Below are positions 31,297-49,265 of a DNA stretch of 64,000 bases, piece after piece. Each line of letters opens with the position of its first letter. The first letter of the stretch is position 1. Position numbers and translations under genes: made by a program. The DNA is from Rhytidiadelphus loreus. Taxonomy: Eukaryota; Streptophyta; Bryopsida; Hypnales; Hylocomiaceae. Location: contig OX344765.1 of assembly GCA_947034895.1 (NCBI GenBank), positions 38,011,001 through 38,075,000 on the forward strand. Direction: 5' to 3'. The notes under the pieces were generated by a model, which saw nothing but the letters and a program-made list of their open reading frames with translations, was not told where the DNA came from and searched no databases.

Positions 31297-31489
31297 CGTG
31301 TTTTTGACATTGTCATTTGCATTGACATTTAAGCTTCTAAAATTAATTCAACTGTAAACTTTAAATTTTATTACTTAGAATTCAAAATTGTATATCATTG
31401 TAAGCAATCTCATTATCTCAATTCATATCATGGAAGATTGTAATTGTTATCATTTTAGTTCCATAAACAGAAAAAGTGAACATGATGAA

Positions 31490-32200
31490 CCCCTTAAGTC
31501 CCATTGTCCCCTCTAGAGACAATTTGGAATTTGGGCAAGTTTCTATGGCTTGAAATTGTACCCTAATTTTTTGAATTTTTTTGTGAAAAGATAAAATCTG
31601 ATAAGCTTTGAGGGAATATAATTTTTATTTCAATTGGTGTCCGGAAGCAAAAGTTACGCCACAAAATACCTAGAACTAAACTCGGCAGGCAGTACAAAAA
31701 ACATTGCAAAAATCCAAAATAGATTTAATTTTGTTCATGTTTTTGCTAACATTATGTTTTTGTCTACATAAAAAGATTTGATTCATTCCATTTTCATTAG
31801 TGATGTGCAAGTTAAGAACCCTGTTCTTTTTAAGGCAATGTAAACAAATATTTCAAAAAATAACTTATAGAATTCATTTGAAAATGCAATTTTCAAATTT
31901 TCTCTAATTAGTTTATTTTAAAGGAGAAGTTTGCTTCCTACAACAATCTCACCGTTGGGACTAACGGATTATTGTGTTCCAATCCCATGTAAGAGCTATT
32001 ATCAATTTAGTTTTTCTTTTAACCTTGGATCTACTTCTACTTGACAATTTTTTGAAGTATGAAAAGGAAGTTATTATTTTTTGAATTTTTTTTTCCTACA
32101 CTCCCAACTCAATTCTTCAACACAATAAATTTTAAATTCAAATTCCATAGTGCACATTTTTGGAAGAAATAGCAATCAAAGTCGTCTGAAAGTGTAGTCC
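31490..32200 (+). repeat. Dispersed AT-rich repeat, copy 2
   Basis: It begins near AAGTCCCATTGTCCCCTCTA and matches 3187-4000 in landmark order, and 48900-48240 in reverse. Inside the giant element copies 2 and 3 face each other and so flank 32-48 kb. The right end is approximate. Confidence 0.55.
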
Positions 32201-32892
32201 AATGTTGCAAAAAAATTATTCTTCAACTTTGAATGCTCATATCTCTAAATCTGTACAGTCAAACATCGTACAATTTTAACCACAAAATCTTAAACAAGTG
32301 AAGTTCAAGATCCTCAGCTTCAGTTCCACAAAAGTTTATTTTTTTCTTTGGACAAACACAATAGAATTATAGAAATGACAGTTTTGATTTTTTCTTCACC
32401 TAAAAATGGCCTTCGGACTTTATGGGTTTAGAAAAACACTGAAAATGGAAAAAACCTATTGGAATCATTTGAAAATTCACCAAGCCATGTAAGTAGCGAT
32501 GGAAATTAGCTAGAAAATGAAGCAATTGGTTATTTTAACTGTAGAGGGTTAGGTCTTTAGGGCTATGTTTTCACCCAATAAATATCAAGATAAACATTTC
32601 TAGTACAAATCCAGAATAAAATGACATAACAAAACTGATTTGAGCAACATTAGGTCTTCTGTTCTTGTACTACATTGGTTTCAAAAGCTGTGACTAAATA
32701 TTTCGCGAATACACTAAGTTCAGAAATCTGCAATACACATTACAAAGTGTACAATAATTATTAAAAAACCACGTGAACTTTGAATGCCAAAAAAATTGTA
32801 GCATATTCTTTACTAAATCACGAGAGAGCCGCAATATCCAAAATTGGATCTTACTTACAAATTTACAATATTGTTCACCAAAATGCGGTACA

Positions 32893-34383
32893 CTACTTTC
32901 TAAAAACCTCTTTTTGGTTTAGGAAGTCACTCATATTAGGAGGACCCACTTTCTCGTATTCTTCACCTCTCTTTCCCGTTGTATCCTTCATCCACTTCAT
33001 CCACTGCGTATAATACTCGCTTTCGGCTCTCACATCCACAAACTCGTCTTCCAACACTTGTACTCTAGTCTCATGGAACTTCACCAAATTCCGAAGCATT
33101 TCTAACTCCTCTGGTAGATTACCGTATGTCGAGGCCGTTGCCAAAACGTCCACCTCCTTGACATGTTTTTTGGGCGCTTCATAATATTTCTTTTCTTCTT
33201 CGGTAATTTGAACACGCAGTGCTCGCCACTCATTCTGTGCTTTCCTACGTCTGCGTTGCAGGGTTTCTAATTTTGATTCCCACAATAAACAATGGTCAGC
33301 TTGCGACAATTTCCCGGTGCTCTGTTTAGTTAAATACTGGTCTCCATTCTTCTTAAAAGCAACAAAATCGTCATCTCTCTCTTTGAGTATTTGGTTGAGA
33401 GACTTCAATTGTTGCTTCAAATAAGCTTCAGTGGGAGAAGACACTTCGCGTTCCTTCAAATTCTTCAGTTCCTCACTCTTTGTACTCAATGATAAACGTG
33501 CATTCTCGATTTTGGCAATCAAGGTCTCCTCATTGTCTGATGAATCACTATCACCTTCTAGCATCGCACACTCCTCTGTGGAAAAGTCCTCCACTTCCAT
33601 GGGGTCAACTTTTTCCAAGACTTCTTCATGGCTGGTTGAGGTAATGGGCTCTTTTCCACGATCTTTCTTCTTCTGAAGGCCCACATCCAAAGACTTCTTG
33701 GACTCGGTGACAAAAACATCTTCATCATCGCTAGAGAAGGAATATCCGTTGTACTCATGGGTGTGCTCGTCCGAGGAAGAAGTGGAAGACCAAACTACTT
33801 CTTCATCAGCAACAAATGATGCTCCACGCTTAATCGGTGTCATCATCTTGCTTATATCAAGAGGATACTTTGCCCACAAGTTGGAGGCTTCCTCCCACTC
33901 TTTTTGGTCCGGACGGACCGCAATAGGCATTTCTGGGAGTGTTGTCCAATCGACTACCTTCTTCAAAATAACTTCGGCATACACCATTCGTACAAGAAAG
34001 AAACTGAAATTATCGTTTCTGTACACCTTGGTCTCCAAATATAGAAGGGTCCATATTTCGCAGCATCTACGCATGAACCTTGTGTCCGTAGCATACGCAA
34101 GGTTAACCTTTTGGTTTTGAACGTGCAAAGGGTGACGACACAACGGAAATAACTTGCTGATGTGGCACCAATCCACATACTTCGCAACAGTCCGGTAACT
34201 CCAAGGCTCTGGTTCATCCCTCCAACCCTTAAAAGCCTTAATCTTCGGATGAAGTAATATGGCCACGCGCTTCTTGTGCTTCTTGCCTGACCGTTTTCGA
34301 CCCTTGTCCTTCATCGCCCTTTTCTCTTGCGGAGTCAATGGAGTAGGTATGGTAGGAGGAGATGGCGAGGTCGTACGCTCCAT
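32893..34383 (-). CDS. Intact coiled-coil protein, member C of the element's three-gene family
   Basis: A 496-residue uninterrupted frame starts at ATG 34383-34381. After a basic N-terminus (KDKGRKRSGKKHKKR, a plausible nuclear signal) comes the family domain, residues about 40-150: FKGWRDEPEPWS, WCHISKLFP, FMRRCCEIW, YAEVILKKVVDW. It matches the same positions in the genes at 28104 and 46151. An acidic Ser-rich stretch (SSTSSSDEHTHE, SSDDEDVF) follows, then a long coiled coil to the end (LSLSTKSEELKNLKERE, LETLQRRRRKAQNEW). Unlike the gene at 28104 it has no RING finger. It is preceded by a GC-rich array (34720-34895) and by a leader shared with the kinase gene. Function unknown; a DNA- or scaffold-binding role is only a guess. 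Confidence 0.8.
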   Translation of the reverse strand: MERTTSPSPPTIPTPLTPQEKRAMKDKGRKRSGKKHKKRVAILLHPKIKAFKGWRDEPEPWSYRTVAKYVDWCHISKLFPLCRHPLHVQNQKVNLAYATDTRFMRRCCEIWTLLYLETKVYRNDNFSFFLVRMVYAEVILKKVVDWTTLPEMPIAVRPDQKEWEEASNLWAKYPLDISKMMTPIKRGASFVADEEVVWSSTSSSDEHTHEYNGYSFSSDDEDVFVTESKKSLDVGLQKKKDRGKEPITSTSHEEVLEKVDPMEVEDFSTEECAMLEGDSDSSDNEETLIAKIENARLSLSTKSEELKNLKEREVSSPTEAYLKQQLKSLNQILKERDDDFVAFKKNGDQYLTKQSTGKLSQADHCLLWESKLETLQRRRRKAQNEWRALRVQITEEEKKYYEAPKKHVKEVDVLATASTYGNLPEELEMLRNLVKFHETRVQVLEDEFVDVRAESEYYTQWMKWMKDTTGKRGEEYEKVGPPNMSDFLNQKEVFRK

Positions 34384-34629
34384 GTTTTAACAATGTATGT
34401 ATAACTAAGCAATATATACTATATAAAAGTCTCAATGCCAAAATACTTACTCTAACTAAGTGAAACTAGTAATCATACGTGTGACACATTTACAAATATC
34501 GAAGCAGAAGTAGATGTTCAAGGTTCAAAGATCGTAGCGGATAGGGTCAAGTTTACGAAACACCGCGGTTTAGACATGCATGGAATGAGAAGAATGAAAT
34601 TCCTTCATTCCCCAATCCCTGCCTCACGC

Positions 34630-34672
34630 ACATGCAGTCAGCCACTTCAAGGTGGATGACAGCCTTTGCACA
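34630..34672 (-). promoter_or_regulatory. Conserved leader between array and start codon, shared with the kinase gene
   Basis: On the minus strand the sequence TGTGCAAAGGCTGTCATCC and the following 20 bases match 39304-39345 upstream of the kinase gene at nearly every position (for example CACCTTG(A/T)AGTGGCTGA). A weaker match lies at about 46000 upstream of the third family member. Position between array and ATG suggests a core promoter or 5' leader. Confidence 0.65.
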
Positions 34673-34719
34673 GAAGCAGGGGGACTGACGACCGCAAGTC
34701 CACCCCACCCCATTTGTAC

Positions 34720-34895
34720 TGGGACTAGCGGTCGCGGGAGGGCGAGTGCGGGTCCTCCAAGTAGGGCGAGTGCGGGTCCCCCGACCGAACAAGGGCGACT
34801 GCGGGTACCCAGGCGACCACGGGTCCACAAGGCGACCGCGGGTGCGGGTCCCTGGGCGACTTCGGGTGCGGGTCCCTGGGCGACTTCGGGTGATT
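34720..34895. repeat. GGGCGACNNCGGGTG array 2 (upstream of the minus-strand family gene)
   Basis: About eight to ten units, including GGGCGAGTGCGGGTCC and GGGCGACTTCGGGTG variants, lie about 340-510 bp upstream of the ATG at 34383. On this gene's strand the unit reads in the complementary orientation. Confidence 0.8.
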
Positions 34896-36003
34896 TTTCA
34901 GGCAAAGACAAATAAAAGAGGAATCTAACACAAGTGGTTTCATATTTTTGGAAGTATTTTATAATTACTTATAAATTTCCAAAGGACTTCTGTCATAGGT
35001 CCCTATTTATGCCCCTAGGTCTTCTGCAAAATGTTCACTTGCAACTTCTAAACATAAATGGGAAAGTAAAGATAATGGATTGGCTCTTACAATTCATAAT
35101 TTTTTTTTCTCGAATCATTTAATGATTATGGAGGTCAATTTATGAACTACAGATTGTCCATTTCAAAGCCACTTATAGAGTCCATTATTAATGCCCGCTC
35201 CATTTCAAAGTCTTCTACCTTATCTTTACTTTCACATCCACACAAATGGAGAAAGGAACCCTCTTTAAAATCCAATGGACGTCGGATTTGGAGAAACTCC
35301 CCAACTAAAAAAATATTTACGATAGTGTTTCCTTGAGTGTCAAATGCTTCAATGCACACCCTTGCCTGAGCAAAAAAATTTATGTATCAATGAATAGGTG
35401 GTAGTGAAATCGTAGGCCACCAGAATTAAAAATATTCCCAACCTGTAATGAGTTTAATAGCTATTCAAGTGATATTAAGTTTTGGAAGAGAACATTTTAG
35501 AGTGCCAATATAATTTGTAGTTCTTCATTTCACCTTCAATCCCAATTTTCTTTTATAAGCAATACAATCAATAAAGAAAATGAAAATTTTCTTGGTTATC
35601 ATCTCACAACTCTTATCCAATTTTGCACTCAAAGGAAACGTGCATACTAATACACAACTACACAAGCTAATTAAACATTCATACGGTTAGATTTTCGGGT
35701 TTAGGGTACTTGCTTCAATGGCAATTACTATAAGTCCATGCTCAATTTTCATAGGAAAAATACAAGAGGGAAAGGCTTAAGGCACTTAGGACTTTATTAG
35801 TAATGCACTCTAATTGTTAAGTTAAACTTATCTTTTGACCCTACATAGATTAAGCAAACACCCGTCTTGTAAAATCAAATTTCATTCAGAAGTATTTATT
35901 CGTCATTCTCCATAATGACGAACAAATCTAATTAAATAATGATTTACCACAATTGAATTCTAAAATACTCTATATCATTACAAATTAGTTACTTTAAAGT
36001 TTC
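34896..36003. other. AT-rich spacer, tail of hairpin unit 1
   Basis: No supported gene. The segment 34925-35130 is the inverse of 45290-45500 and resembles 37980-38170 in complement. The segment 35640-35990 is the conserved AT-rich tail that follows the hairpin units at 38260-38490, 43165-43400 and 44530-44720. These are parts of a repeated module. Confidence 0.6.
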
Positions 36004-36275
36004 AAAAAATCCCGTGAAGACCTCGGTATAGGCCACGCGACGTGCTTCGAGGATTGAGCCAAGGACCACTTTGAATTCCGCACCGAAATGTTTTTCATCT
36101 CAGTGCGCAATTCAAAGTGGTCCTTAACCAAACCTGTAAGACCCAACCATAACCTCCTATATCATGCACACGGAGTTGGGAATCGAACCGTAGACCTCCC
36201 AGACTCCACTTGAGTTCGAAGAAGTTGACCCTTGTGTGAGAATCCCTTCCACTACTTCACCTTCCCGTTGGTCAC
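36004..36275 (-). ncRNA. Hairpin-RNA unit 1 (tRNA-like promoter, 26-bp hairpin, T6)
   Basis: On the minus strand an A-box consensus TAGTGGAAGGG (36254-36244) and a B-box consensus GGTTCGATTCC (36189-36179) are 54 nt apart, as in a polymerase III internal promoter. About 50 nt later comes a hairpin: arms 36125-36100 and 36086-36061, 24 of 26 positions complementary, loop 13 nt. A T6 run at 36009-36004 follows the conserved 'acgtcgcgtggcc..accgaggtc' segment and could end polymerase III transcription. The predicted RNA is about 250-270 nt. Whether it is made, and processed to small RNAs, is unknown. Confidence 0.6.
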
Positions 36276-36399
36276 ATCGGGAATCACCTTTGATGCACCA
36301 CTCCTTGTCCATCCCATCTTTATTCTTTTTTTTCTTTGATTCTATTGGGCTTCAAAATACCATCAGCTGCCCAACACGAAATAGTCTCAACGTTTGGAC

Positions 36400-36612
36400 C
36401 CGAAGTCGCCCCACCCGAAGTCGCCCTACCCGCGGTCGCCCAAGTCCCAGAAAAGAGGGAAGCAAAAATGCGTGAGTTCTTCCCTCCTCTCTGGACCCGC
36501 GGTCGCCCTACCCGCAGTCGCCCCACCCGAGGTCGCCCCAACACCGCAGAAAGAAGTCCCTAGTTTCCCCCTTTTCTGGACCCGCGGTCGCCTCACCCGC
36601 GGTCGCCCCTAC
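36400..36612. repeat. GGGCGACNNCGGGTG array 3 (upstream of hairpin unit 1)
   Basis: ACCCG(A/C)(A/G)GTCGCCC units lie in two groups separated by 'agaaaagagggaag' and 'agaaagaagtccc' spacers. On the minus strand they precede the hairpin unit, as arrays 5 and 6 do for units 3 and 4 on the plus strand. Confidence 0.85.
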
Positions 36613-38488
36613 ATTGGTATTTGAAAGAGTGACTTACAGAAGACTGCAGTCATGGTAGGTGAGATCATAGAATAATCTCTAGATAGCTTACAATTATATC
36701 ACATGATCATTTTATTAAATGGTCCCTAACAAGGCTTCAATATCCTCAAGCCCTACAATGATGAACCAAAAACCCTTCAAAGCCCTCGCAAACTAGAACC
36801 AGAAACGCAAACCTAAACCCTGAAATGCCCAACGCATTTTAGGATGGTTTATGAATTTGCTTGAACCCCAAAATGACCCTGGAATTTGCTAAGCTTCTAG
36901 AATTTGCTCTAAATTGAACAAAAATCCAACATTTTGATACGTTCTATCCATTCTTTTTGAATTGTAACCGTGTAAATTCAAACTAGACGTATTAGAGATC
37001 ACATTAGAAAAGAAAACACAACAATACCTCTAATTTATTGAAAGATTATAATGTTTTATCATGAGGGTGTTAAATCTGTGAAAGTGATTTGAAGTATTTC
37101 AATCCTCTTTTCAAATGTGAAATCTAAAAAGTTCGTCACCTAAAAAATATGAGCTTAAAGGGCCTAAGGTGCATAAACCCAATCAATTTATAACTTCTCA
37201 AAATCTACTTTATCATTTTTTTAAATTTCATTTGTAATGTGATATTTTCTCAAAGATTTAGTGTGTTTGAGGCTCATTCCTAAGAGCCCTCAACACTACA
37301 AAAAGTCAAGATTGCAAGTGTACACCCATGCACAAAATCTTAAATAGAAAAATCATAATCAATCATTTTCAAAATCAGATTTTTGAAGCTAAAACTAAAC
37401 TTCAAAAAGAATTTTCCAAAAATATGAATTACTACATATAGTAATTTGGTAAGGTTTTGTTTAACTTAGGAAATTGGTTGAGGACCCATCCTGTCCTCGG
37501 GGTCACTTAGGGGTTCACTTGAACAAGAAGCCAACATCTTGAATTATAGAATCAATTTCTGTATACTTATTCATTTTTCCTCCAATCCCAAGAAACTTTT
37601 TTTCTGCAAACTTTAAAATGGTTGTGGAGAGGGGTAATACACTCGAAGTGAAGAATGTACATTTCTCTTGTTATAATCTTAAAACTCTTCCGCAATTTTG
37701 CACTCAAAATGAATGTGCATACTAACAAGCAAGTTGTTTAAACATTCATACGTTTAGATTAAAAAATAAATAGGAAACTTGCTTCAATGGGAATAACTAC
37801 AAGTCCATGCTCTTTTCAGAACAGAAAAACTAAGGTAGGAGGTTGTGAAAGAGTGCGGGCATTAAGAATGGCTCCTATAAATGGTTGTGGAATGGTGCAT
37901 CTAAAGTTCTGAAATTGACCAATACATTCATTGAATGAACCAAGGAAGAAAACATTATTAATTGGAAGAGCCAATCATTCTCTGTGTTTTCTCCATTTTT
38001 ATTTAGAATTGCAAGTGAACCATTCATGAAAGATCTAGGGTCACAAATAGGGACCTATGACCCAACTCGTTTGAAAATTCATAAGTAATTCAAAAATCTT
38101 TGGAAAAATATGAAACCACTTGGGTTAGATTCCTCATCAATTTCTCTTTGTCTGAAAAATGAGCTAAAAATATTCCCGTCCAAAGAAATACACGAAAAAG
38201 GCAGACCAGCCCTTAGGTGCACCATTTCTGAGCCTCCTACCTTACACTTGGAAAGGCATAGGCTCTTAGGGGTTCATTAGTAAATAATGCACTCTAATTG
38301 TTAAGTTAAACTTATCTTTTGACCCTACATAGATAAAGCAAACACCTCGTATTGTAAAATCAAATTTCATTCACAAGTATTTATTCATCATTGTCCCTAA
38401 TGACGAACAATTCTAATTAAATAAAGATTTAGCACAATTGAATTCTAAAATACTCTATATCATTACGAATTAGATACTTTAAAGTTTC
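36613..38488. other. Spacer between hairpin units 1 and 2
   Basis: No supported gene. 36620-36900 ('acagaagactgcagtcatgg', 'aaatggtccctaacaagg') is the inverse of 42050-42270 and 43510-43730, which precede arrays 5 and 6. The segments 37700-37900, 37980-38170 and 38260-38490 are further copies of module parts seen at 35640-35990 and 45290-45560. Confidence 0.6.
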
Positions 38489-38760
38489 AAAAAATCCCGT
38501 GAAGACCTCGGTATAGGCCACGCGACGTGCTTCGAGGATTGAGCCAAGGGGCACTTCGAATTTCGCACTGAAATGTTTTTCATCTCAGTGCGAAATTCAA
38601 AGTGCCCCTTGACCAAACCCGTAAGACCCAACTATAACCTCCTACATCATGCACACGGAGTTGGGAATCGAACCGCAGACCTCCTAGACTCCACTTGAGT
38701 TCGAAGAAGTTGACCCTTGTGTGAGAATCCCTTCCACTACTTCACCTTCCTGTTGGTCAC
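38489..38760 (-). ncRNA. Hairpin-RNA unit 2 (tRNA-like promoter, 26-bp hairpin, T6)
   Basis: A box at 38739-38729 and B box at 38674-38664 match the consensus exactly. Hairpin arms are 38610-38585 and 38571-38546, 25 of 26 complementary with a G:U in the odd position; loop 13 nt. T6 at 38494-38489. The arm core GGGGCACTT differs from unit 1 (GGACCACTT) on both strands together. The unit lies head-to-head with the kinase gene and shares array 4 with it. Confidence 0.6.
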
Positions 38761-38849
38761 ATCGGGAATCACCTTTGATGCACCACTCCTTGTCCATCCC
38801 ATTTTTATTCCTTTTTTTCTTTGATTCTATTGGCTTCAAAATACCCAAA

Positions 38850-39290
38850 GTCGCCCAACACAAAATAGTCTCCCAGTCGCCCCACGGCTCCATAGCCCCA
38901 CCCGAAGTCGCCCCACCCGAAGTCGCCCTACCCGAAGTTGCCCCACCCGAAGTCGCCCCATTCGAAGTCGCCCCACCCGAAGTCGCCCAATCCCCCAAAG
39001 AGGATTACAAATGCGTGAATTTTCCACGACTTCTGGACCCGCGGTCGCCCCACCCGAAGTCGCCCACCCGAAGTCGCCTACCCGAAGTCGCCCCAGTCGA
39101 GGTCGCCCCAGCACCAAAAAAGCTGGAAGTCCCAAGTTCCAGGGCGACCTCGGGTGTAGGGGGCGACCTCGGGTTCAGGTTTCAGGACCGCTTTGGTACC
39201 CGCGGTCGCCCTTACCCGCACGCGCCCTGTCACCCGCACGCGCCCCTATGGCGACCGCGGGTACTTAAGCGGTCGCCCCACCCGCATTCG
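38850..39290. repeat. GGGCGACNNCGGGTG array 4, shared by hairpin unit 2 and the kinase gene
   Basis: Runs of CACCCGAAGTCGCCC units at 38860-38995 and 39040-39110 are followed by mixed-orientation units up to 39290. Hairpin unit 2 leads away leftward and the kinase gene rightward, so this is a candidate bidirectional control region. The long 'open frames' across it merely translate the repeat. Confidence 0.85.
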
Positions 39291-39303
39291 CCAGTCTTGG
39301 TCC

Positions 39304-39345
39304 TGTGCTACGGCTTTCATCCACCTTGTAGTGGCTGAATGCGAG
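39304..39345 (+). promoter_or_regulatory. Conserved leader upstream of the kinase gene
   Basis: The segment starting TGTGCTACGGCTTTCATCC is nearly identical to the minus-strand leader at 34672-34630, although the two genes encode unrelated proteins. It lies between array 4 and the ATG at 39446. Confidence 0.65.
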
Positions 39346-39445
39346 CTTGTGGGCCAAGGCGGTGATTGGGGGGGGGACTTGTTGCCCTTTTTTTCCACGA
39401 CTCTATTTATTGATCGATTGTAGGTAACTTTGTGAAGGAAGAGCT

Positions 39446-41086
39446 ATGTCTAATCCAGGAGAAGGGAGTAGTACAATGCGTCCGTCTCTATGGGATATTA
39501 ACCACGATGACCCCCGGGAATGGGAGAATGCTACAAGGAAATATGTAAGGGGCACCAACCTTGACAATCCCGCGGAGTTCCAAGTGACTATTGACTCATA
39601 CGAGTCAACGGGTGGAGAGTCATCATCAAAGTCGAAGAAGTCAAAGACGGCATATGATAAGGACCCAACTTATCCTCCACGTGATTATTCAATATTTGCA
39701 CAGCGAGTGTGTTTCGAATGGTACGAGGGACGCACTGTGGAATTCCTAGAGTCTACATACTTGAGGCATAAAGAATCAGGCATCATTAAGTTGAAGAGAG
39801 ATTTGAGCACTTTTATTCTAAAAAAGTGCAAAGAATCCCCGAAATATGCTGACGTGGATGAAACGTACTTTGGCAACTATGAGAAGTGGATGGAGAACGT
39901 GCTCATGGAAATCATTTTCAATACCAAAAAAATCATTGTAGAGCACCGACCTATAGTCCCTGGGTGTGAAAATAAGGAGACCATCGAATTCCACGCAAAA
40001 ATGGCATGGTGGCAGAAAGCGGCGTCTAGACTATCGAAGACTGTATCTAGGACGATGGGGTGGCAGTTGGACGCATTGACGGCTGCTCTTTCTCAAAACA
40101 GTGGATCGTCTCTCATGTGGATCAATTCTAGTGCAAAAGTGGTTCCGCTTAGTGGATATGACCAACAAGGGGGGTATGGAAAGGTGCGTAAGGTATACAT
40201 TGATGGCATGTCTACAATACCCAAGCATGTACATTTTGCAGGGAAGGTGTCAAAGCAAACAAACACGCGTGATGCGAGATATGAACGATCCATTGAGGCC
40301 TTGGTGTGTCCTTTAAATCACCCAGCCATTGTTAAATTTGTGGCTATCCACGCCAATACAATGGAGGCCTACACGTTGTGGTGGAATGGTGGTAATTTGA
40401 ACAAACTTGTTCGCTTGAATGAGAAGGTCGTGCCACATGCCGATTGGCACGAAATCAAGTTGGTGAAGGAACTTCAACAAGAGCAGGTGAAGCAAATTAG
40501 CCTCTTTCGAAGGCACAAGGCGAAGTTAGCATGGGCCCTTGTTTATGTGACAAGTCTTGTACACAATGAAGGTGTTCTACACAACGATTTGTCTCCCAAC
40601 AACATATTAATCCATTATCCGCCGTACTCGGATGATGTTATAAACATTGGGATTTGCGATTGGGGAATTGCCAGTCGTATACAAGAGGGAGCTCCCTCAC
40701 ATTTTGGATACAAAACCACGAAAGAGAGGGATGACATGTTGAAAGGCAGATGGTGGGTGGCTCCAGAGTTGTTCTATGTGTTTGGGCCAAAGGGTTCAGA
40801 AACGAGCCTTGACAAGATGCAAGCCAGGCACAAGTATACGGTTAAGTCTGATTCGTTTTCTATTGGTAAATTGATTTGGAACATGAAAATTGGTTATATG
40901 GGTGAATATGACAGGGAACTATTCAAAAACCCTGAGTCGGGAAAGTTCTTTACAATGAAGTTACGTGCGCTTATGGATCTTGACTTACAGACGAGACTCA
41001 CATGCTCTGAGGTGGTAGCTTCACTCATGCTTCCACCCTGGAATATGAAGCCTCCAGAATTAGTTTTTCGGGACTCCGTGTTGTAG
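39446..41086 (+). CDS. Atypical protein kinase
   Basis: A 546-residue intact frame. Residues 1-220 have no recognisable domain but are rich in charged residues, with a Ser/Lys tract (SSSKSKKSKT). The kinase domain covers about 225-535. Visible elements: glycine loop QQGGYGKV at 240-247, likely ATP-binding Lys267 (HFAGKVSK), catalytic loop HNDLSPNN with Asp381 and Asn386, metal-binding DWG at 405-407 in place of DFG, and APE at 439-441. The usual HRD Arg is Asn. Catalysis looks possible since Lys, both Asp and Asn are kept, but the HRD and DFG departures make it an outlier. No membrane segment, so probably soluble. It lies at the centre of the inverted arrangement of hairpin units, with array 4 and a leader shared with the gene at 34383. 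Captured host gene or element gene: not decidable here. Confidence 0.88.
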   Translation: MSNPGEGSSTMRPSLWDINHDDPREWENATRKYVRGTNLDNPAEFQVTIDSYESTGGESSSKSKKSKTAYDKDPTYPPRDYSIFAQRVCFEWYEGRTVEFLESTYLRHKESGIIKLKRDLSTFILKKCKESPKYADVDETYFGNYEKWMENVLMEIIFNTKKIIVEHRPIVPGCENKETIEFHAKMAWWQKAASRLSKTVSRTMGWQLDALTAALSQNSGSSLMWINSSAKVVPLSGYDQQGGYGKVRKVYIDGMSTIPKHVHFAGKVSKQTNTRDARYERSIEALVCPLNHPAIVKFVAIHANTMEAYTLWWNGGNLNKLVRLNEKVVPHADWHEIKLVKELQQEQVKQISLFRRHKAKLAWALVYVTSLVHNEGVLHNDLSPNNILIHYPPYSDDVINIGICDWGIASRIQEGAPSHFGYKTTKERDDMLKGRWWVAPELFYVFGPKGSETSLDKMQARHKYTVKSDSFSIGKLIWNMKIGYMGEYDRELFKNPESGKFFTMKLRALMDLDLQTRLTCSEVVASLMLPPWNMKPPELVFRDSVL

Positions 41087-42270
41087 TGTGATAGAAGAAT
41101 ACCATAGTATCATTTTGGAGTAGTACTTCTAGTACATGTAATCAAATTTTAATATGAAGTGCCATTTTCCCCAAATTGGCAATATTGTGGATCTATTCTT
41201 CATGGTATGTTGTATTGAATCTCTCATATCAATGTTTGTATTTTGCTGCAATGAATGAATTAAATAGGCTCAATGTTCCAGTAAGATATATAGCCTTGGA
41301 ATAATGGAGCCCATTTCCTTCTAAAAAGCATTGACAATCGGCACTTGTATTGGTTCATCCGGCAAAAAAGGATGACTTTCTTGTAATCTTAATAGGTTTT
41401 TGGCAATAAAAATGACATTTCTCAATTGGTTTGAATGGGCCAGAAAAAATGGGAACATAAGGGTTAAATGCAATACACCATTTTTAGGTGAAATTAATTT
41501 CACCTTTATATGTAGAAATTACGTTTTCTCTCAACAAAACCATTTTGGTCTACAAATTAAAAATTAAATTTTGAATTTGCCTTTTAATGTTTCACAAAAC
41601 ATTTTTACAAAGAGTACCTTGAAGGCTTCTTCCAGGTTCATTACTTTTGAATACAAGGTCAAAATATTCTTGCAAGATCTATATGTTTGAGCCATAATCG
41701 AAAACTAATAAAAGTTTCTTTAGATGTGAATTTAACCCCTGAAGTTCGAAGGCCATTATAGGTTCAAAACCACTAAAAACCGTCACTTTGGCTACTTTGA
41801 GAAAAAATCTTGAAGTGCATTACAATAAGAGTGCATTAATTATTAAGCCCTATGTGCCTAAGCCTTTCCCTCTTGTATTTTTCCTATGAAAAAAAAGCAT
41901 GGACTTACAGTAATTGGGATTGAAGCAAGTTTCCTATTTATTTTTTAATCTAACCGTATGAATGTTTAAACAACTTGCTTGTTAGTAGGCACATATAATG
42001 TTGACTTCTTGTACAATTTAAAGCAAATTCATAAAACATCCTAAAATGCATTGGGCATTTGAGGGTTACGGTTTGGATTCTAGGGTTCTACTTTGCGAGG
42101 GCTTTGTCGGGTTTTCGGTTCATGATTGTAGGGCTTCAAAATATTGAAGCCTTGTTAGGGACCATTTAATAAAATGATCATGTGATATAATTGTAAGCTA
42201 TCTAGAAAATATTCTATGATCTCACCTACCATGACAACAGTCTTCTATAAGTGACTCTTTCAAATACTGA
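41087..42270. other. Kinase 3' region and leader of module 3
   Basis: No supported gene. 41087-41300 is probably the kinase 3' UTR. 41830-42000 resembles the spacer parts at 37720-37900. 42050-42270 (ending 'aaatactgatgtaggggcg') is repeated almost exactly at 43510-43735 and inverted at 36620-36840. Confidence 0.6.
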
Positions 42271-42770
42271 TGTAGGGGCGACCGCGGGTGGGGCGACCGC
42301 GGGTCCAGAGAAGGAGGAGATTGGGGACTTCCTTCAGCGGTGTTGGGGCGACCTCGGGTGGGGCGACTTCGGGTGGGGCGACCGCGGGTAGGGCGACTAC
42401 GGGTCCAGAGAAGGGGGAAATTGGGGACTTCTTTCTGCGGTGCTGGGGCGACCTCGGGTGGGGTGACTTCGGGTGGGGCGACCGCGGGTAGGGCGACTAC
42501 GGGTCCAGAGAAGGGGGAAATTGGGGACTTCTTTCTGCGGTGCTGGGGCGACCTCGGGTGGGGCGACTTCGGGTGGGGCGACCGCGGGTAGGGCGACTAC
42601 GGGTCCAGAGAAGGGGGAAATTGGGGACTTCTTTCTGCGGTGCTGGGGCGACCTCGGGTGGGGCGACTTCGGGTGGGGCGACCACGGGTCCAGAGAGGAG
42701 GGAAAAACTCACGCATTTGAAATTCCCTCTTTTCTGGGACTTGGGCGACTTCGGGTGGGGCAACTTTGGG
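42271..42770. repeat. GGGCGACNNCGGGTG array 5 with a 100-bp higher-order repeat
   Basis: Units are GGGGCGACCTCGGGT, GGGGCGACTTCGGGT, GGGGCGACCGCGGGT and AGGGCGACTACGGGT in fixed order. They alternate with a 'ccagagaagggggaaattgg' segment, which recurs exactly every 100 bp (about 42404, 42504, 42604). The array precedes hairpin unit 3. Confidence 0.9.
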
Positions 42771-42894
42771 TCCAAAACTAGGAGATTAATTTATGTTGGG
42801 CGGCTCATGGTGTTTTGAAGACCCGTACAATCAAAGAAAAAAAAAGAATAAAAATGGGATGGACAAGGAGTGGTGCATCAAAGGTGATTCCCGA

Positions 42895-43167
42895 TGTGAC
42901 CAACGAGAAGGTGAAGTAGTGGAAGGGATTCTCAGACAAGGGTCGACTTCTTCGAATTCAAGTGGAGTCTGGGAGGTCTATGGTTCGATTCCCAACCCGG
43001 TGTACATGATAAAGGAGGTTATAGTTGGGTCTTACGGGTTCGGTCAAGGACACTTTCGAATAGAGAACGGAGATGACAAACATTTCCGTTCTATACTCGA
43101 AAGTGTCCTTGGCTCAATCATGGAGGCACATCACGTGGCCTAGACCGAGGTCTTCACGGGATTTTTT
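42895..43167 (+). ncRNA. Hairpin-RNA unit 3 (tRNA-like promoter, 26-bp hairpin, T6)
   Basis: A box TAGTGGAAGGG at 42917-42927 and B box GGTTCGATTCC at 42982-42992. Hairpin arms 43046-43071 and 43085-43110, 24 of 26 complementary, loop 13 nt. T6 at 43162-43167. The arm interior (TAGAGAACGGA on the 5' side) shares little with units 1 and 2, and the 3' arm has changed to match. The start at 42895 is a guess about 20 nt before the A box. Confidence 0.6.
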
Positions 43168-43734
43168 GAAACTTTAAAGTAACTAATTTGTAATGATATA
43201 GAGTATTTTAGAATTCAATTGTGCTAAATCATTATTTAATTAGATTTGTTCGTCATTATGGACAATGATGAATAAATACTTGCGAATGAAATTTGATTTT
43301 ACAAGAGCGGTGTTTGCCTAATCCATTTACAGTCAAAAAGATAAGTTTAACTTAAAGTGTATTACCCCTCTCTACAACATTTTGATAATTTGCACAAATA
43401 AATTTTGTGGGGATTGGAGGAAAAATGAAGAAGTACAAAGAAATTGATTCTATAATTCAAAATGTTGATTTTTTGTTGAAGTTAAAGCAAATTCATAAAA
43501 CATCCTAAAATGCGTTGGGCATTCAAGGGTTTAGGTTTGCGTTTATGGTTCTAGTTTGCGAGGGCTTTGTAGGGTTTGGAGTTCATGATTGTAGGGCTTG
43601 AGGATATTGGAGCCTTGTTAGGGACCATTTAATAAAATGATCATGTGATATAATTGTAAGCTATCTAGAAAATATTCTATGATCTCACCTACCATGACAG
43701 CAATCTTCTATAAGTGACTCTTTCAAATACTGAT

Positions 43735-44140
43735 GTAGGGGCGACCGCGGGTGGGGTGACCGCGGGTCCAGAGAAGGGGGAAATTGGAGACTTCCTTTAG
43801 CGGTGCTGGGGCGACCTCGGGTGGGGCGACTTCGGGTGGGGCGACCGAGGGTAGGGCGACTACGGGTCCAGTGAAGGGGGAAATTGGGGACTTCTTTCTG
43901 CGGTGCTGGGGCGACCTCGGGTGGGGCGACTTCGGGTAGGGCGACTACGGCTCCAGAGAAGGGGGAAATTGGGGACTTCTTTCTGCGGTGCTGGGGCGAC
44001 CTCGGGTGGGGCGACCTCGGGTGGGGCAACTTCGGGTGGGGCGACCGCGGGTCCAGAGAGGAGGGAAAAACTCACGCATTTGAAATTCCCTCTTCTCTGG
44101 GACTTGGGCGACTTCGGGTGGGGCGACTTTGGGTCCAAAA
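43735..44140. repeat. GGGCGACNNCGGGTG array 6 (upstream of hairpin unit 4)
   Basis: Same units and 'ccagagaagggggaaattgg' spacers as array 5, with one fewer 100-bp period and a few unit variants (for example GGGCGACCGAGGGT). Confidence 0.9.
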
Positions 44141-44257
44141 CTGGGAGATTAATTTGTGTTGGGCAGCTCATGTTGTTTTGAAGACCCGTACAATCAAAGA
44201 AAAAAAAAGAATAAAAATGGAATGGACAAGAAGTGGTGCATCAAAGGTGATTCCCGG

Positions 44258-44530
44258 TGTGACCAACGGGAAGGTGAAGTAGTGGAAGGGATTCTCACAC
44301 AAGGGTCGACTTCTTCGAATTCAAGTGGAGTCTGGGAGGTCTACGGTTCGATTCCCAACCCGGTGTACATGATGTACGAGGTTCTGGTTTGGGCTTCTTG
44401 GTTCGGTCAGGGACCTCTTCGAACTCCGCTATGAGATAAGAAACAGGTCATAGTGGAGTTCGAAGAGGCTCCTGGTCAAACCTTCGAAGCATGTCATGTG
44501 GCGTATACCGAGGTCTTCACGGGATTTTTT
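44258..44530 (+). ncRNA. Hairpin-RNA unit 4 (tRNA-like promoter, 26-bp hairpin, T6)
   Basis: A box at 44280-44290 and B box at 44345-44355, both exact. Hairpin arms 44409-44434 and 44448-44473, 23 of 26 complementary, loop 13 nt (GATAAGAAACAGG). T6 at 44525-44530. This copy has the most different arms (ACTCCGCTATGA on the 5' side) and also a changed loop. Confidence 0.6.
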
Positions 44531-45837
44531 GAAACTTTAAAGCAACTAATTTGTAATGATATAGAGTATTTTAGAATTCAATTGTGCTAAATCTTTCTTT
44601 AATTAGAATTGTTCGTCATTATGGACAATGACGAAGATGTACTTGCGAATGAAATTTGATTTTAGAAGAGGGGTGTTTGCATAATCTATTTAGAGTCAAA
44701 AGATAAGTTTAGCTTAACAATTAGAATGCATTACTAATGACCCCCTAAGTGCCTATGCCTTTCCAACTGTATTTTTCCTTTATGAAAAGAGCATGGACTT
44801 ATAGTTATTTCCATTGAAGCAAGTTTTATGAAACAAGAACCTAACCATAGGAATGTTTAATTAGCTTGTGTATTAGTATGCACGTTTCATGAAGGTGCAA
44901 TATTGGATAAGAGTTGTGAGATGATAACCTACCAAATTTACTTTTTCATGGTTGAGTGTACTGCTTATAAAAATAAATTTGGGATTGGAGTTGAAATGAA
45001 GAACTACAAATTATATTGGCACACTAAAATGTTCTCTTCCAAAACTTAATATCACTTGAAAAAGCTATTAAACTCATTACATGTTGGGAATATTTTTAAT
45101 TGCGGTGGCCCACGATTTTACTACCACCTATTCATTGATACATAAATTGTACTTCCTTTCTCCATTTGTGAGGATGTGAAAGTAAATATAAGGTAGAAGG
45201 CTCTAAAATGGACTGGGCATTAAAAATGGACTCTATAAGTGGCTTTGAAATGGACAAACTGTAGTTCATAAATTGACCTCCATAATCATTAAATGATTCG
45301 AGAAAAAAAAATTATCAATTGTAAAAGCCAATTCATTCTCTTTACTTCCCCATTTTTCTTTTGAAGTTGCAAGTGAACGTTTTACGGGAGACCTAGGGGC
45401 ATAAGTAGGGACCTATGACACAAGTCCTTTGGAAATTTACAATTAATTAAAAAATACTTAAAAAAAATGAAATCACTTGTGTTAGATTCTTCTTTTATTT
45501 TTCTTTGTCTGAAAAATGATCTAAAAATATTTTCATTGAAGTAAATACATGAAAAAGGGAGATCAATCTTGAGATGAGCCATTTGTGAGGGCCAGGGTGA
45601 ATTGACTCCCTCATTGCCCATCCAGGGCTTGCCCTAGAATTTATTATTTGCACTGCTTAATTTTTGGGGGAATTCTGAAATCATATTTGCAATCAGAGGC
45701 CCCAAATTACTTCTAGGAGATGCAAGAATTACCCAAAAGTTGGCAGAATATAGGGGGCTTTTTTTTTAAATCTAAGTTGACGGGGGCAATGAGGGGGTCA
45801 ATTCTCCCTCTGCATTTCCTGAGTCTACTACCTTTCC
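44531..45837. other. AT-rich tail of hairpin unit 4
   Basis: No supported gene. 44531-44720 is the conserved tail. 45290-45560 is the inverse of 34925-35130 and marks the outer edge of the inverted arrangement around the kinase gene. Confidence 0.55.
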
Positions 45838-45965
45838 CTGGACCCGCGGTCGCCCTGAAGCCGCACGCGCCCTTCCTGGACCCGCGGTCGCCCCACTTAA
45901 CGCACTCGCCCCCCTAAACCCTGATCCCGCACGCGCCCAGGGCGACTTCGAGTACAAATGCGGTC
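45838..45965. repeat. GGGCGACNNCGGGTG array 7 (upstream of family gene B)
   Basis: A short array: ACCCGCGGTCGCCC, CCCGCACGCGCCC and related units, about 190-310 bp before the ATG at 46151. A weak copy of the shared leader (CTGTGCATCGGCTTCCAT) follows at about 46001. Confidence 0.8.
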
Positions 45966-46150
45966 GCCTGGGACGCGAGCTGCCACTTTCTTTTCCAGTG
46001 CTGTGCATCGGCTTCCATATGCTTTCAAGCGTCTGGATGCGTGTTCGTGCACTGGAATCTTGTATCTAGGACACTTTTTGTGTTGTCGTCGATTGTGGAA
46101 GACCATACTTTCTGAGCACTTGGAGGATACCAACACATCCTATATTCACC

Positions 46151-47728
46151 ATGGCCCCCCCCTTTAAGAAGGCAAAGAAGAAAGGAAAGCGCCATAGTCG
46201 GAATGTAGCCATCCTTTTGGACCCAACAGCAAGGGCATTTCCAAATTGGCAAAACGTGCAATCGGATTGGACGTTCAACACTTGCAAGGCCTACGTAGGG
46301 TGGTGCCATATCGATAAGCTATTCCCTTACTTCCGGCACGATGTCCATATCAGCCAAAACAATGCTAATCTTCACTACTGCAGAGATGATGCATTTGTGC
46401 AACGGTGCATCGAAGTTTACCGGACATTATATCAAAAACCAACAGTGAAGGGGAGTCAAGTTTCATTGGGTATATGCCAAATGGTCTATGCAGAGCTACA
46501 ATTGCGACGAAATGTGGATTGGAGGACCATTAAGAAAAACCCCAATAGCATAGTTCCCACTACCAAAGACATTCCAAGGGCGGATCCATCAAATAATCCG
46601 AGGGATGGATTAGGGCCCAAAAAACATTTCAAAGAAGAAGTGTCGGATGAAGACTACGATTGGGGCCAGTCGTCCACCTCCACCGACTCGGATGAAGAAG
46701 ACATTGCAGACCCTATGCCCCCAAATGAAGATCCAATACTTGAAGAAAATATGGCAGCGGTGGTACCTTTTGTTGGAGACTCAGAAGGGGCAGTAGTATT
46801 GCATGTCGCGCCTCTTAAATCGTTGGAGCCAATGCACTTCCGTCATCCTGAGGAAGACGAAGTTCTTCAACATGTATATGCACGCATGCGAGAAATGGAG
46901 GAAGACAAGGAGGAGGGCGAGATCGGGTTGCAATGAGATGCTGAACAAGCATTGGTGATTTTTGATTCATGTGAAGAACTACCTCTTCAAGAAGCAGGAA
47001 GGGAAGTATTATATCTTGAAGACACGAGGAGGCAAGGAAAAGAAGCTTATAAAGCCCAATTGAAGGCTATTCTTGGTAGACTGGTAGAAATAGAAATGGA
47101 ATGTGAAAGGCAGCGTGAACGCACTGGTGGTGACATTCAGGACAACGATGAGCACACCCTTGAAGCACTAATCATAAGCGGGAAAGTTCGTTTGTCAGTT
47201 CAACAAAAGGAAATGGACGAGCTGGAGCAATTTTATTTGAAATTCAATAAAGGCAAAGATGGAGGCTCTACCTCAAATTCCACCCCGTTCTTGGATAAAC
47301 GAATGGCCAAAATAATGGAAGAGTGTTTGGCAGAAGAAAACCGATTGAATACCGAAAGGAAAGCTGTGGAAGAGGCGCAGTCAAGGTTGAATGACCTAAA
47401 AGAAACCACGGTTGTAGGCCCCATTGACCTTCCAATGGCTTTGAATGCATTATTAGTAGATGAAGAGCATTGTGTGCTGACATCAGAGGTAGCTTCCTTG
47501 AAGCAGAAGTTAGTTTCTTTGAAGAAGCTTGAACACCAGTTTCAGAAGCACATAGATTTCCGGACTGCACACATTGGTTATGCGAGAACGTTCAAGAATT
47601 TTTGGATAAAAAACAAGATGTGGAACCATGACCTACCCCTTTTGAAGAGTGCTTATAGAATTGCGGCCCATGAGTTTGAAGTCATGAAGAAGAAAAGGGA
47701 AGAGGAGGCCAATACGGATGTTGCATGA
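46151..47728 (+). pseudogene. Coiled-coil protein, member B of the family, with one in-frame TGA
   Basis: One frame of 525 codons runs from the ATG at 46151 (CACCATGGCC context) to TGA at 47726-47728 and is interrupted only by TGA at 46934-46936. The N-terminus is basic (KKAKKKGKRHSRN). The family domain at about 25-125 has WCHIDKLFP, FVQRCIEVY and YAELQLRRNVDW in the same spacing as the genes at 28104 and 34383. An acidic stretch follows (SDEDYDWGQSS, TDSDEEDIADP), then a coiled coil in the part after the stop, ending with a basic EVMKKKREEE tail. The stop is one C-to-T step from CGA. If translation ends there, only the domain and acidic stretch remain; a functional truncated protein cannot be excluded. 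Confidence 0.75.
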
Positions 47729-48914
47729 TTTTGGGCTAGAGGTAGTCTTCTAGTAAATAATAGACTAATAGGTAGTTGTTTTTCTAAACTTGTGTGTATC
47801 GGAAGGGTTGCTTTGACCTTTAGAACCACCTCATGTTGTACAATGGGGTCCATGTTTTGTTTCTTCAATAAAGATATATAAATATTCCTATATGAATTAG
47901 CCTTTATGTATTTTGAAGATCTAATTCTTGATGATTAGACACATGTCAAATACATTTATTGCATGTGTTGTAGGTCAGTTTTCTACGTAGACTTTTGTGC
48001 TTTCATTTACACAAAATACCAACAATGTAATAATACCATTGTCTTTTTAAGAAATTCATACCGAACATCCAAACAATTATTTATATTTGAACAACTTCAT
48101 ACAATTTCTAGTTTGCCATGTACATCAATTGCAAGATCTTCCTACGATGTGAAAATAAATAAAGTTTACTATAGATTTGAAGATATTCCTAAATCCTAAA
48201 CCCGTAAGGAGTGAAATAGTTTGTTTTGGCATCATAGTGATATTTAGAAGGGAAACATGAATAAAATTTGTAGTATCTCCTTTGGCACAACATTTTTTAA
48301 AGGATTAAATTCGAAGCCTACCAAATTTTAGAACTTCTCACTACGTGGTTCAAATGTTTTTGTATGATAAGTAGTTTTCAATACTTAGCATTCAGTTGGT
48401 CCCCCGAAAAATTAATGATATTCTTCACAAATGACAAGGCATTTCCAATAACAAAATTGATATTGAAATTGGTTCTTAATTTCTTATGATTTATATCTAT
48501 GTGAAAAACTTTGAATCATTTCATTTTGATTGCTTGCCAAACAATATTGTTCATAACTTTCACATTACTAATCGAAATGGAATGAATCAAAGCTACACAT
48601 GTAGACAAAAATATGACCTTTAAGAAGAAAAAAATTAAAAAATTAATTTCAAATTATTGTAGATTTATTTTTCTGCCCTGAGACGTTCCTTACTTCCTTA
48701 CAAATTATGTTAAAGATGCCATAACTTTTGTTCCCGGAATCCCAGGTACCAATTGCAACAAAATTTATATTCCCATAAAGGTAATAAGCTCTTGTATATT
48801 ATGAGATAGTTTCCAAAAAATTCATTAAAAATTGAGATCATAGGAACCTGCCCAAAATCCATATTGTTCCTTGAGGGGACAATGGTCCTTTAGGGGTTAA
48901 GTTAATCTTTATGC
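47729..48914. other. Spacer with dispersed repeat copy 3
   Basis: 47729-47890 is the likely 3' UTR of the preceding gene. 48240-48900 is the dispersed AT-rich repeat in reverse orientation, ending at AGGGGTTAAG next to the following array. No supported gene. Confidence 0.55.
48240..48900 (-). repeat. Dispersed AT-rich repeat, copy 3
   Basis: The reverse complement starts TTAACCCCTAAAGGACCATT and keeps the landmarks of 3187-4000 and 31490-32200. Its outer end abuts array 8 directly. Confidence 0.55.
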
Positions 48915-49265
48915 ACATGAAGTCGCCCTTCTTTCCCCCGAGGTCGCCCATGGCACTCGAAGTCTCCCATGAAACCTGAAGTCGCCCATGTGGGACCCGA
49001 AGTCGCCCATCTGAGACCCGAAGTCGCCCATGTGGGACCCGAAGTCGCCCGTCTGAGACCCAAAGTCGCCCTCCCTAGACCCGAAGTCGCCCCACCTAGA
49101 CCCGAAGTCGCCCTCCCTGGACCCGCGTTCGCCCTATTTCGGACCCGAAGTCGCCTGCCGGAACCCGTGTTCGCACCATGTGACCCGAAGTCGACTACTG
49201 CAAAGGCGCGCGCCTCCATATGCCTGGAGGTGGACCAGCGGTCGGGTAGGGCGACCTCGGGTGTA
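48915..49265. repeat. GGGCGACNNCGGGTG array 8 (upstream of the transposase gene)
   Basis: ACCCGAAGTCGCCC units alternate with short variable spacers such as 'atgtggg', 'atctgag' and 'tccctag', giving a looser array than the others. A TATA-like CTATAAATG lies at about 49331. The ATG of the transposase is at 49557. Confidence 0.85.

Follow-up and report, generated by a model that had tools for sequence, protein, structure and literature searches.

Candidate hairpin-RNA genes carried by a hAT-type transposon in the moss Rhytidiadelphus loreus

The window analysed here, a 64-kb stretch (64,000 nucleotides) of the R. loreus genome, contains four units in which sequences resembling an RNA polymerase III (Pol III) promoter are followed by a long hairpin whose arms differ from unit to unit and still pair with each other. 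The locus raises the question of what such units are, what carries them, and how their arms came to differ with pairing kept.

Anatomy of the hairpin units

All four predicted units were located (Table 1), each with exact matches to the A box (TAGTGGAAGGG) and the B box (GGTTCGATTCC) and with 54 nt between the end of the A box and the start of the B box. The hairpins of 26+13+26 nt, which had been placed about 50 nt downstream with a T6 run about 50 nt further, were measured to lie 53 nt beyond the B box and 51 nt ahead of the T6 run. The reported 24, 25, 24 and 23 Watson-Crick pairs of 26 (U1 to U4) were reproduced, with a further 1, 1, 0 and 2 G-U pairs; the stem is in fact longer, comprising 34 register positions with 32, 33, 31 and 31 standard pairs. 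The exact B box occurs four times in the 64 kb (both strands searched), always within the units. A search of the window for hairpins with a loop of 3-20 and 23 or more Watson-Crick pairs out of 26 finds six: those of the four units, and two (31101-31179 and 59864-59934) that are parts of other palindromes.

Table 1. Features of the window
Feature	Position	Strand	Details or basis
U1, type A	36004..36275	-	A box 36244-36254; B box 36179-36189; stem 36099-36132 with 36054-36087; T6 36004-36009
U2, type B	38489..38760	-	A box 38729-38739; B box 38664-38674; stem 38584-38617 with 38539-38572; T6 38489-38494
U3, type C	42895..43167	+	A box 42917-42927; B box 42982-42992; stem 43039-43072 with 43084-43117; T6 43162-43167
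U4, type D1	44258..44530	+	A box 44280-44290; B box 44345-44355; stem 44402-44435 with 44447-44480; T6 44525-44530
hAT-type DNA transposon, ~26.4 kb	27316..53704		Homology breaks against other copies; terminal inverted repeats and target duplication read directly
Transposase ORF, 1095 aa (DUF659 and hAT dimerisation domain)	49557..52844	+	Domain matches
Protein kinase ORF, 546 aa, between the inverted arms	39446..41086	+	ORF and domain search, copies compared
Left long inverted-repeat arm with U1, U2	34893..38877		Repeat comparison
Right long inverted-repeat arm with U3, U4	41997..45517		Repeat comparison
Ty3/Gypsy LTR retroelement, insertion host of the hAT element	12169..57912	-	LTRs, target duplication, pol

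The units combine the A box, B box and T-run terminator of type 2 Pol III genes with the near-perfect arm pairing of miRNA genes, at an A-to-B-box gap that exceeds the 30-40 bp given in PMC7279448. ARAGORN found no tRNA genes in the window, and in 35500-45200 Rfam gave no match above gathering score and no tRNA match at E<=1; the Rfam miRNA matches, all under gathering score, were dismissed as chance resemblance of long stems. A tRNA-derived SINE, with a head identifiable as a tRNA and with solo dispersed copies that have a 3' tail and target duplications of their own, is not supported in view of these ARAGORN and Rfam results, of the conserved element sequence that follows the terminal T run, and of the alignment to a transposon past the units in all 20 genomic clusters fetched from among 605 matches.

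Among 92 genomic units, changes were found in 10/1012 cells of the A box, in 7/1012 cells of the B box (the B-box stretch being also the search pattern with which the units were collected) and in 768/11408 cells of the rest of the head; the boxes are 2.3-9.7 times less variable than the latter. The terminal T run reaches a length of 5 or more in 91 of the 92 units, and an internal run of T4 or more is present in 8. Beyond the stem, the sequence of types A, B and F (26/1598) is conserved like the boxes (4 and 7 of 374).

The carrier transposon

Transposons of the hAT superfamily have CAGGG-type ends, an 8-bp target duplication and a hAT dimerisation domain. The element that encloses the units has such ends and such a domain: its ends are CAGGGTTGTC... 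(left) and ...GACAACCTTG (right), with short terminal inverted repeats (CAGGGTTGTC and, as reverse complement, CAAGGTTGTC), and the transposase ORF matches Dimer_Tnp_hAT (E 2.3e-07) and DUF659 (E 2.2e-36). An 8-bp target duplication, GTTTATAT, flanks the window copy on both sides (27308-27315 and 53705-53712); none is present at the only further copy whose two ends were both read (L058/L055). Homology with other copies stops at 27316 on the left (one side) and at 53701-53704 on the right (three sides). The hairpin units are cargo of this transposon, which also bears a protein kinase, and lie about 9 kb from each of its ends. Unlike usual hAT elements, it is about 26 kb long and joins the kinase to long inverted arms with hairpin-RNA units, a combination for which no hAT precedent was found in a full-text literature search; scans of viral contigs found no relatives. 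The original prediction had not identified the carrier as a kinase-bearing hAT transposon.

The B-box stretch has 605 matches in the 407-Mb genome, out of which 20 clusters were fetched. The hAT element aligns past the units in all of these; 17 have full units on the two strands and hence in the two arms, and kinase sequence is found in 19, with the 546-aa ORF intact in 10. Judged by these intact ORFs and by a kinase synonymous difference of 0.0115 (11 copies), the family looks young and active. The window copy lies within a Ty3/Gypsy retroelement (LTRs 12169-14812 and 55269-57912, 99.96% identical; 5-bp target duplication GCTCC; pol at 21062-26326), which merely received the insertion and is outside the finding itself. 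The entire 45.7-kb LTR-flanked stretch was also considered as a single giant LTR retroelement carrying the units, and this was dropped when the flanks of other copies marked a separate hAT insertion of ~26.4 kb.

Divergence and pairing of the arms

Eight hairpin types were named from the 92 units, and 20 further units added variants. The types recur across many elements, and the arms of a given type are almost identical between elements. Types A and B are found on the left, and types F, C, D or G, and E on the right, where the array of units grows and shrinks between copies; one 10-kb locus has five full units and an inferred sixth. Type G, an E/D chimera with a poorer stem, still accounts for 6 of the 92 copies. 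Predicted folds (88 units folded, of the 92) range from -37.8 to -71.1 kcal/mol.

That changes in one arm are matched in the other was confirmed: among the four window units, 15/34 pairs have changed on both sides and 93.4% of 136 cells are paired, as compared with 0/500 shuffles as high and 31-49% paired upon sliding by 1-3 columns. The genome-wide covariation test that had been proposed gave 17/34 pairs changed on both sides for the eight types and 18/34 for 19 representatives (0/500 shuffles each), with many transversion swaps; several stem columns are invariant across all 19 representatives.

Between window units, the arms differ at 0.13-0.61 per site versus 0.03-0.14 in the A-to-B-box stretch and outer flanks. 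The linkers at the stem are intermediate (0.00-0.24), and the outer flanks are themselves repeats (the long inverted-repeat arms), so their similarity reflects shared descent and not the unit alone. Between types, too, divergence is greater in the arms than in boxes and outer flanks, with intermediate values for the linkers beside the stem, which have diverged by up to 0.31 and 0.19. In the C-D1 comparison, the values are 0.40 and 0.61 for the arms, 0.21 and 0.18 for the linkers, 0.05 upstream, 0.03 for the boxes and 0.17 downstream.

Within a type, all 66 changes are one-sided and none is paired; 27 of them break a pair, and the arms change at about the same rate as the flanks. Distinct changes that keep pairing number 18/33, with 17.4 expected (types A and G left out). 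Since none of the 66 changes is paired, pairing is not under correction now. Ongoing arm diversification is not supported. Decay of arm complementarity at the neutral rate, named by the original prediction as evidence against itself, is nearly what young copies display; between types, pairing has been kept. Of the hairpin-RNA genes with diversifying arms that were proposed, the Pol III-like anatomy (over 92 copies) and the diversification between types are supported; diversification at present is not.

Function, rival explanations and precedents

The explanation that we prefer, tentatively and at a little below an even chance, is that the units are small Pol III hairpin-RNA genes of a multi-copy hAT transposon, which would feed RNA silencing. 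Judging from the anatomy and conservation of promoter and terminator, transcription by RNA polymerase III would begin close to the A box and end at the T run, giving an RNA of about 250 nt. The transcript is predicted to fold into a hairpin of at least 31 pairs, for which covariation provides the evidence of pairing, behind a tRNA-like promoter head; a Dicer-type enzyme would cut the hairpin into small RNAs, and these may serve the element in RNA silencing in trans. Each element would carry several paralogous units, the arms of which appear to have diverged into distinct and then stably inherited sequences with pairing kept. This explanation is favoured by the exact anatomy of all four window units, the conservation of the boxes and T run, the covariation and deep folds, the sharing of types by many elements, the alignment of clusters past the units, the units in both arms and the kinase sequence of most clusters, the young and active look of the family, and precedents for the parts (TMERs and Neurospora Pol III milRNAs). 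It is disfavoured by the failure to find a target, by within-type arms that change like flanks, by box-like conservation past the stem in types A, B and F, by the use of the B-box stretch as search pattern, by the divergence of linkers, by the persistence of type G, and by the negative ARAGORN and Rfam results.

The suggestion that the arms suit changing silencing targets found no support in the limited searches made. In the window, the best arm matches equal those of shuffles, and no match with fewer than 5 mismatches in 21 was found in the kinase, the transposase or the rest of the window. The genome screen, which covered a single rare arm, gave 17 places, of which the 15 checked were all hairpin units, and no target. 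A weak protein-coding signature in the arms may be taken as a lead only: it scored 95/5000 for six 5' arms; 24/4000 in the best of six frames and 1/4000 in the same frame for twelve arms; and 2/5000 and 3/2000 in the best of six frames and 0/5000 in the same frame for thirty arms. Arm-versus-own-arm differences fall at codon positions as 18/13/46, counts inflated by shared descent, the distinct events being 10/8/14 (not significant). When the test was confined to the 92 units, hairpin-overlapping windows scored 202, 78, 13, 21 and 170 of 400 (the 5' arm alone being not significant), and 16 windows outside the hairpin scored 47-398 of 400. The test sets excluded units used in the codon search, and 14 added units were seeded by the arm of an excluded unit (L049).

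The peptide read from the arms may resemble the RNBS-A motif of NLRs; it had no match among PDB sequences. A loose regular expression for it matched 1/193 fetched proteins (P0122) and no window frame outside the units, and a still looser one also matched the window at 63119 and 44646; both were judged chance. The alphaC of receptor kinases was rejected as a target because the arms fit the candidate sites too weakly, and remains a faint lead. A search with a 34-aa query scored 150 places among 328 candidates, the best scored having 68% identity over 28 residues; the full peptide was found in 0 of 14 parsed readings (20 sites fetched), and the arms matched the 20 sites at a mean of 15.06/21, compared with 14.62 when the arms were shuffled synonymously (P 0.01 of 200) and 13.84 when their letters were shuffled. 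miRNAs of the miR482/2118 type track synonymous variation. The many diverged members of this plant family target NBS-LRR genes where these encode a conserved protein motif (PMC4700956); their target is known, whereas for the units there is the weak coding signature and no target found. It is doubtful, and on balance quite improbable, that the arms mimic one short conserved coding motif (K-D-x-F-E-F-R-T-E-M in one frame, with variation leaning to third positions) so that arm types would follow the synonymous variation of a gene family, belonging to the host or to a rival, that the element silences in an arms race. Both this and the preferred explanation are weakened by the diverged linkers and by the lack of significance of the 5'-arm codon signal in the 92-unit windows.

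Arm complementarity might instead be kept neutrally, by template switching of DNA or arm-to-arm conversion, with no RNA function. Template switching is able to create and mend stems (an excerpt of PMC8794818), and both the symmetric small indels in the two arms of type C relative to type A and the adjacent double changes read from the alignments resemble single template-switch events. Copying of arm onto arm would double divergence, and the arms of C and D1 have just 2-3 times that of the linkers; the excess is more than twofold over outer flanks and box stretch, and the lower variability of the boxes within the head also speaks against neutrality. Frequent correction at present is contradicted by the lack of doubled changes within types (0/66), and the arm-to-arm conversion offered with the original prediction, if continuous, has likewise left no sign on the timescale of these changes. 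We regard this neutral explanation as rather unlikely. We also consider it unlikely that the hairpins are decoys, occupying export, Dicer/Argonaute steps or an RNA-binding protein by structure, like adenovirus VA RNAs, whose Pol III-made hairpins saturate Dicer and act as competitors for Exportin-5 (parts of PMC5511817). A decoy acts by structure and not sequence, so any pairing arm would suffice, consistent with sequence drift under kept pairing between types, with the failure to find targets in the limited searches, and with the high copy number; dose would count, at several units per element and hundreds per genome. The conservation of arm types over many elements, the invariant stem columns and the weak coding-like constraint are less easily accommodated.

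A role at the level of DNA, in which cruciforms formed by the palindromes would help the long inverted-repeat arms to recombine or transpose, would suit the symmetric placement of units in these arms and the expansion and contraction of the right array; it leaves box conservation and fixed distances unexplained, the units are distant from the transposon ends, and it appears very unlikely. Equally hard to credit, and at the lowest end of the range, is self-targeting, whereby the host would read the hairpins as siRNA sources that silence the transposon, to the host's benefit or as a brake on copy number. The near identity of same-type arms between elements makes targeting of other units automatic, but the arms match the kinase and transposase at no more than shuffle level, so silencing would miss the mRNAs of the element.

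By analogy, TMERs and Neurospora Pol III milRNAs are known precedents of the units' parts. TMERs of murine gammaherpesvirus 68 have a tRNA-like head with a type 2 Pol III promoter, then hairpins processed to miRNAs, in several units (sections of PMC8223928), an arrangement that the units resemble; TMERs are viral and their miRNAs have been shown, whereas the candidate units belong to a cellular DNA transposon, have one hairpin each and have a head not recognised as tRNA. Neurospora milR-1 and milR-4 (the latter joined to tRNAs) are Pol III-transcribed hairpins that enter a miRNA-like pathway; they share hairpins and (putatively) Pol III with the units, and are fungal loci for which the portion of PMC3547838 consulted mentions neither mobility nor a diversified family. 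Adenovirus VA RNAs, which are made by Pol III and engage Exportin-5 and Dicer through the structure of their stem (PMC5511817, in part), are viral and form a single multi-domain structure, unlike the units.

The diverse hairpins, each paired with itself, hint that gene silencing may be their role. Small RNAs usually act against transposons. If the preferred explanation is true, a transposon with its own cargo of diversified, promoter-driven hairpin-RNA genes would reverse this role and would be a cellular counterpart of the TMERs and VA RNAs of viruses. As a single genome holds hundreds of units belonging to several types, the way in which long, near-perfect stems diversify and stay paired becomes directly testable.

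The carrier element and its host

The window corresponds to C5:38011001-38075000 in a genome of 407 Mb. The four hairpin units lie in the inverted arms of a transposon nested in a Ty3/Gypsy LTR element (table below). Among the best 120 of 3233 protein matches to this LTR element, the organism-named ones that span the full query reach their highest identities in liverworts (Riccia 55%, Marchantia 52%), which suggests a land plant, perhaps a bryophyte. A second insertion within the LTR element is delimited by the points where homology of other copies' flanks ends, which is at 27316 for one left end and at 53701-53704 for three right ends. Its ends are CAGGGTTGTC and GACAACCTTG, GTTTATAT flanks both sides, and its 1095-aa ORF contains DUF659 and hAT-dimerisation domains; thus, the inner element is of hAT type and about 26.4 kb long. 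A 1-kb piece of it matched at about 100% in all 40 scored matches (of 4674 candidates), which points to an abundant and young family. One copy at C1:42.48-42.51 Mb (ends in fetched loci L058, 1-2000, and L055, 7946-10000) has no matching target duplication and may therefore be a recombinant of two elements. A nested foldback or MITE insertion could explain the palindrome within the hAT element, since 30966-31302 is absent from copy L058.

An intact kinase ORF, with 73 relatives and a pN/pS of 0.59 across 11 intact copies, is located between the two long inverted arms. The glycine loop, a candidate nucleotide-binding lysine, and the HND...N and DWG motifs are kept, and the predicted kinase may be catalytically active.

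Features of the window
Feature	Position	Strand	Remarks
Ty3/Gypsy LTR element	12169-57912		GCTCC target duplication; 2644-bp LTRs, 99.96% identical
962-aa ORF	15001-17889		no Pfam match; within LTR retroelement, between pol and 3' LTR
hAT-type element	27316-53704		
240-bp palindrome	31018-31255		inside hAT element; 90.8% (BLAST), best arm 26/26
G+C-rich tandem motif like GGGCGACYKCGGGTG	34700-34900, 36390-36610, 38850-39280, 42270-42760, 43740-44140		near each hairpin unit, in inverted arms (by eye)
Hairpin unit, type A	36004-36275	-	left arm
Hairpin unit, type B	38489-38760	-	left arm
Kinase ORF	39446-41086		
Hairpin unit, type C	42895-43167	+	right arm
Hairpin unit, type D1	44258-44530	+	right arm
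Second long palindrome	59801-59997		beyond both elements

Pairing between and within hairpin types

The four units are present as first described, each of 272-273 nt with an A box, 54 nt, a B box, 53 nt, the hairpin, 51 nt and a T6 run. The exact B box is confined to them in the 64-kb window, and a profile search of the window returned the four units, one match no better than chance and, for each palindrome, a faint antisense echo. The 84-nt hairpin pieces fold with 37, 38, 36 and 33 pairs. The original observation that changes on one side of the stem are matched on the other was borne out at 15 of 34 pairs (93.4% of 136 cells paired), with two-sided swaps including C-G to G-C, C-G to A-U and A-U to U-A, and none of 500 shuffles matched the real value on any of five measures. 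For every 5' arm the best partner is the 3' arm of the same unit (29-31 of 31 standard pairs, versus 19-30 with those of other units).

The B-box stretch has 605 genome matches at up to 3 mismatches (reversed control, 0), of which 100 places were listed. Sampling 20 clusters, each of 10 kb and all from a single contig, and 20 single units gave, with the window, 92 full-length units. A search with a codon pattern (the codon search) added 6; of these 98, 97 were placed in register and comprise 42 distinct arm pairs. Two-sided changes occur at 17 of 34 pairs across eight types. Covariation also held in 19 representatives (18 of 34 pairs two-sided, 89.6% of 646 cells paired, 0 of 500 shuffles), a set that includes codon-search rows L049, L052 and L053 and excludes type F and L050 (other loop length) and L051, L054, L080, L082, L083, L085 and L091 (near-copies of a kept one, or other loop length).

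Between types, arms differ by up to 0.61 per site, the linker before the stem by up to 0.31, the stretch after it by up to 0.19, the A-to-B-box stretch by 0.02-0.09, the 250 nt upstream by 0.03-0.17, and the downstream part by 0.02-0.34 (above 0.22 solely against type F). Within one type, mean arm differences are flank-like (0.00-0.08). All 66 within-type pair changes, counted without one unit of other length, are one-sided, with a standard pair kept in 39 and broken in 27. Setting aside the mixed type A and the chimeric type G, the remaining six types have 33 distinct changes, of which 18 keep pairing versus 17.4 expected; the rate per site is there 0.080 in arms, 0.083 in the upstream flank and 0.089-0.150 in the remaining parts. 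Thus, the proposal that arms diversify while remaining paired is supported between types but not within them. The one-sided changes, the near-expected retention of pairing and an arm rate close to that of the upstream flank indicate that ordinary copies decay, pairing being retained solely in lineages that founded types.

Pol III-like promoter boxes and unit arrays

Across the 92 units, changes number 10 in 1012 cells in the A box, 7 in 1012 in the B box (a figure biased because this stretch was the search pattern) and 768 in 11408 in the rest of the head, and 27 in 552 in the T6 columns against 402 in 4324 in the rest of the post-stem stretch. For types A, B and F, fetched mostly by position rather than with the B-box pattern, the corresponding counts are 4/374, 7/374 and 179/4216, and 0/204 against 26/1598, the post-stem stretch being conserved equally to the boxes. 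The final T run reaches 5 or more in 91 of 92 units; an internal run of at least 4 occurs in 8.

Types A and B together occupy the left position in 20 of 28 cases, the other 8 being without position class, and were never otherwise seen. Right-hand combinations are F+C+G+E (locus L009), C+D1, D2+E, G+E, F+E, and C with D2 and E, a pattern that suggests successive deletions or duplications in the right array. The tandem of four right-hand units at L009 (4410-8595) is the largest array in the 20 fetched clusters. In type G, the 5' arm is E-like and the 3' arm D-like, and the stem is weaker.

Possible roles of the hairpin product

Most types yield a similar peptide, K-D-[HNDLT]-F-[ED]-[FLY]-R-[TSY]-E, when the 5' arm and the reverse-complemented 3' arm are translated in one and the same frame. 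For 30 distinct arms from outside the codon search, 0 of 5000 column permutations scored as well in this frame, against 2 of 5000 when the best of six frames was taken, and the synonymous fraction was 0.42 versus 0.10 and 0.11; for 16 windows that lie outside the hairpin, the counts were 47-398 of 400 permutations. Counting against the signature, however, are the hairpin-overlapping windows of the 92 units alone (202, 78, 13, 21 and 170 of 400), the distribution of distinct arm-versus-arm events by codon position (10/8/14), the origin of 11 of the 17 arm pairs from a search seeded by a codon-pattern unit, a stop in one type C arm, and a wider frame that is not open in several types. The signature is best regarded as a pointer towards a possible target motif. 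When one rare arm was searched against the genome as a 24-mer with up to 3 mismatches, 17 places matched. The 15 of them that were fetched are hairpin units, and the remaining two, 29 bp from each other, face in opposite directions as two arms would; receptor-kinase sites did not match the arms well enough.

The layout of the window units resembles that of TMERs (PMC8223928) and Pol III milRNAs (PMC3547838). In searches of open-licence PubMed Central papers for transposon-borne Pol III hairpins, for kinases in giant LTR elements and for hAT elements with kinase, DUF659 or microRNA cargo, no such element was described among the matches listed.

Pairing might be maintained neutrally, with no RNA function, by arm-to-arm conversion or by template switching, which can generate and repair stems (PMC8794818). 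Template switching accounts for symmetric indels and adjacent double changes, but it leaves the low variation of the boxes unexplained and has no trace within types, and neutral maintenance is considered unlikely. That the product works by structure, as a decoy, is judged improbable. The promoter boxes, conserved pairing and diversified arms fit small hairpin-RNA genes of the transposon; it is possible, though somewhat short of probable, that their product would work by sequence, as small RNAs with targets.
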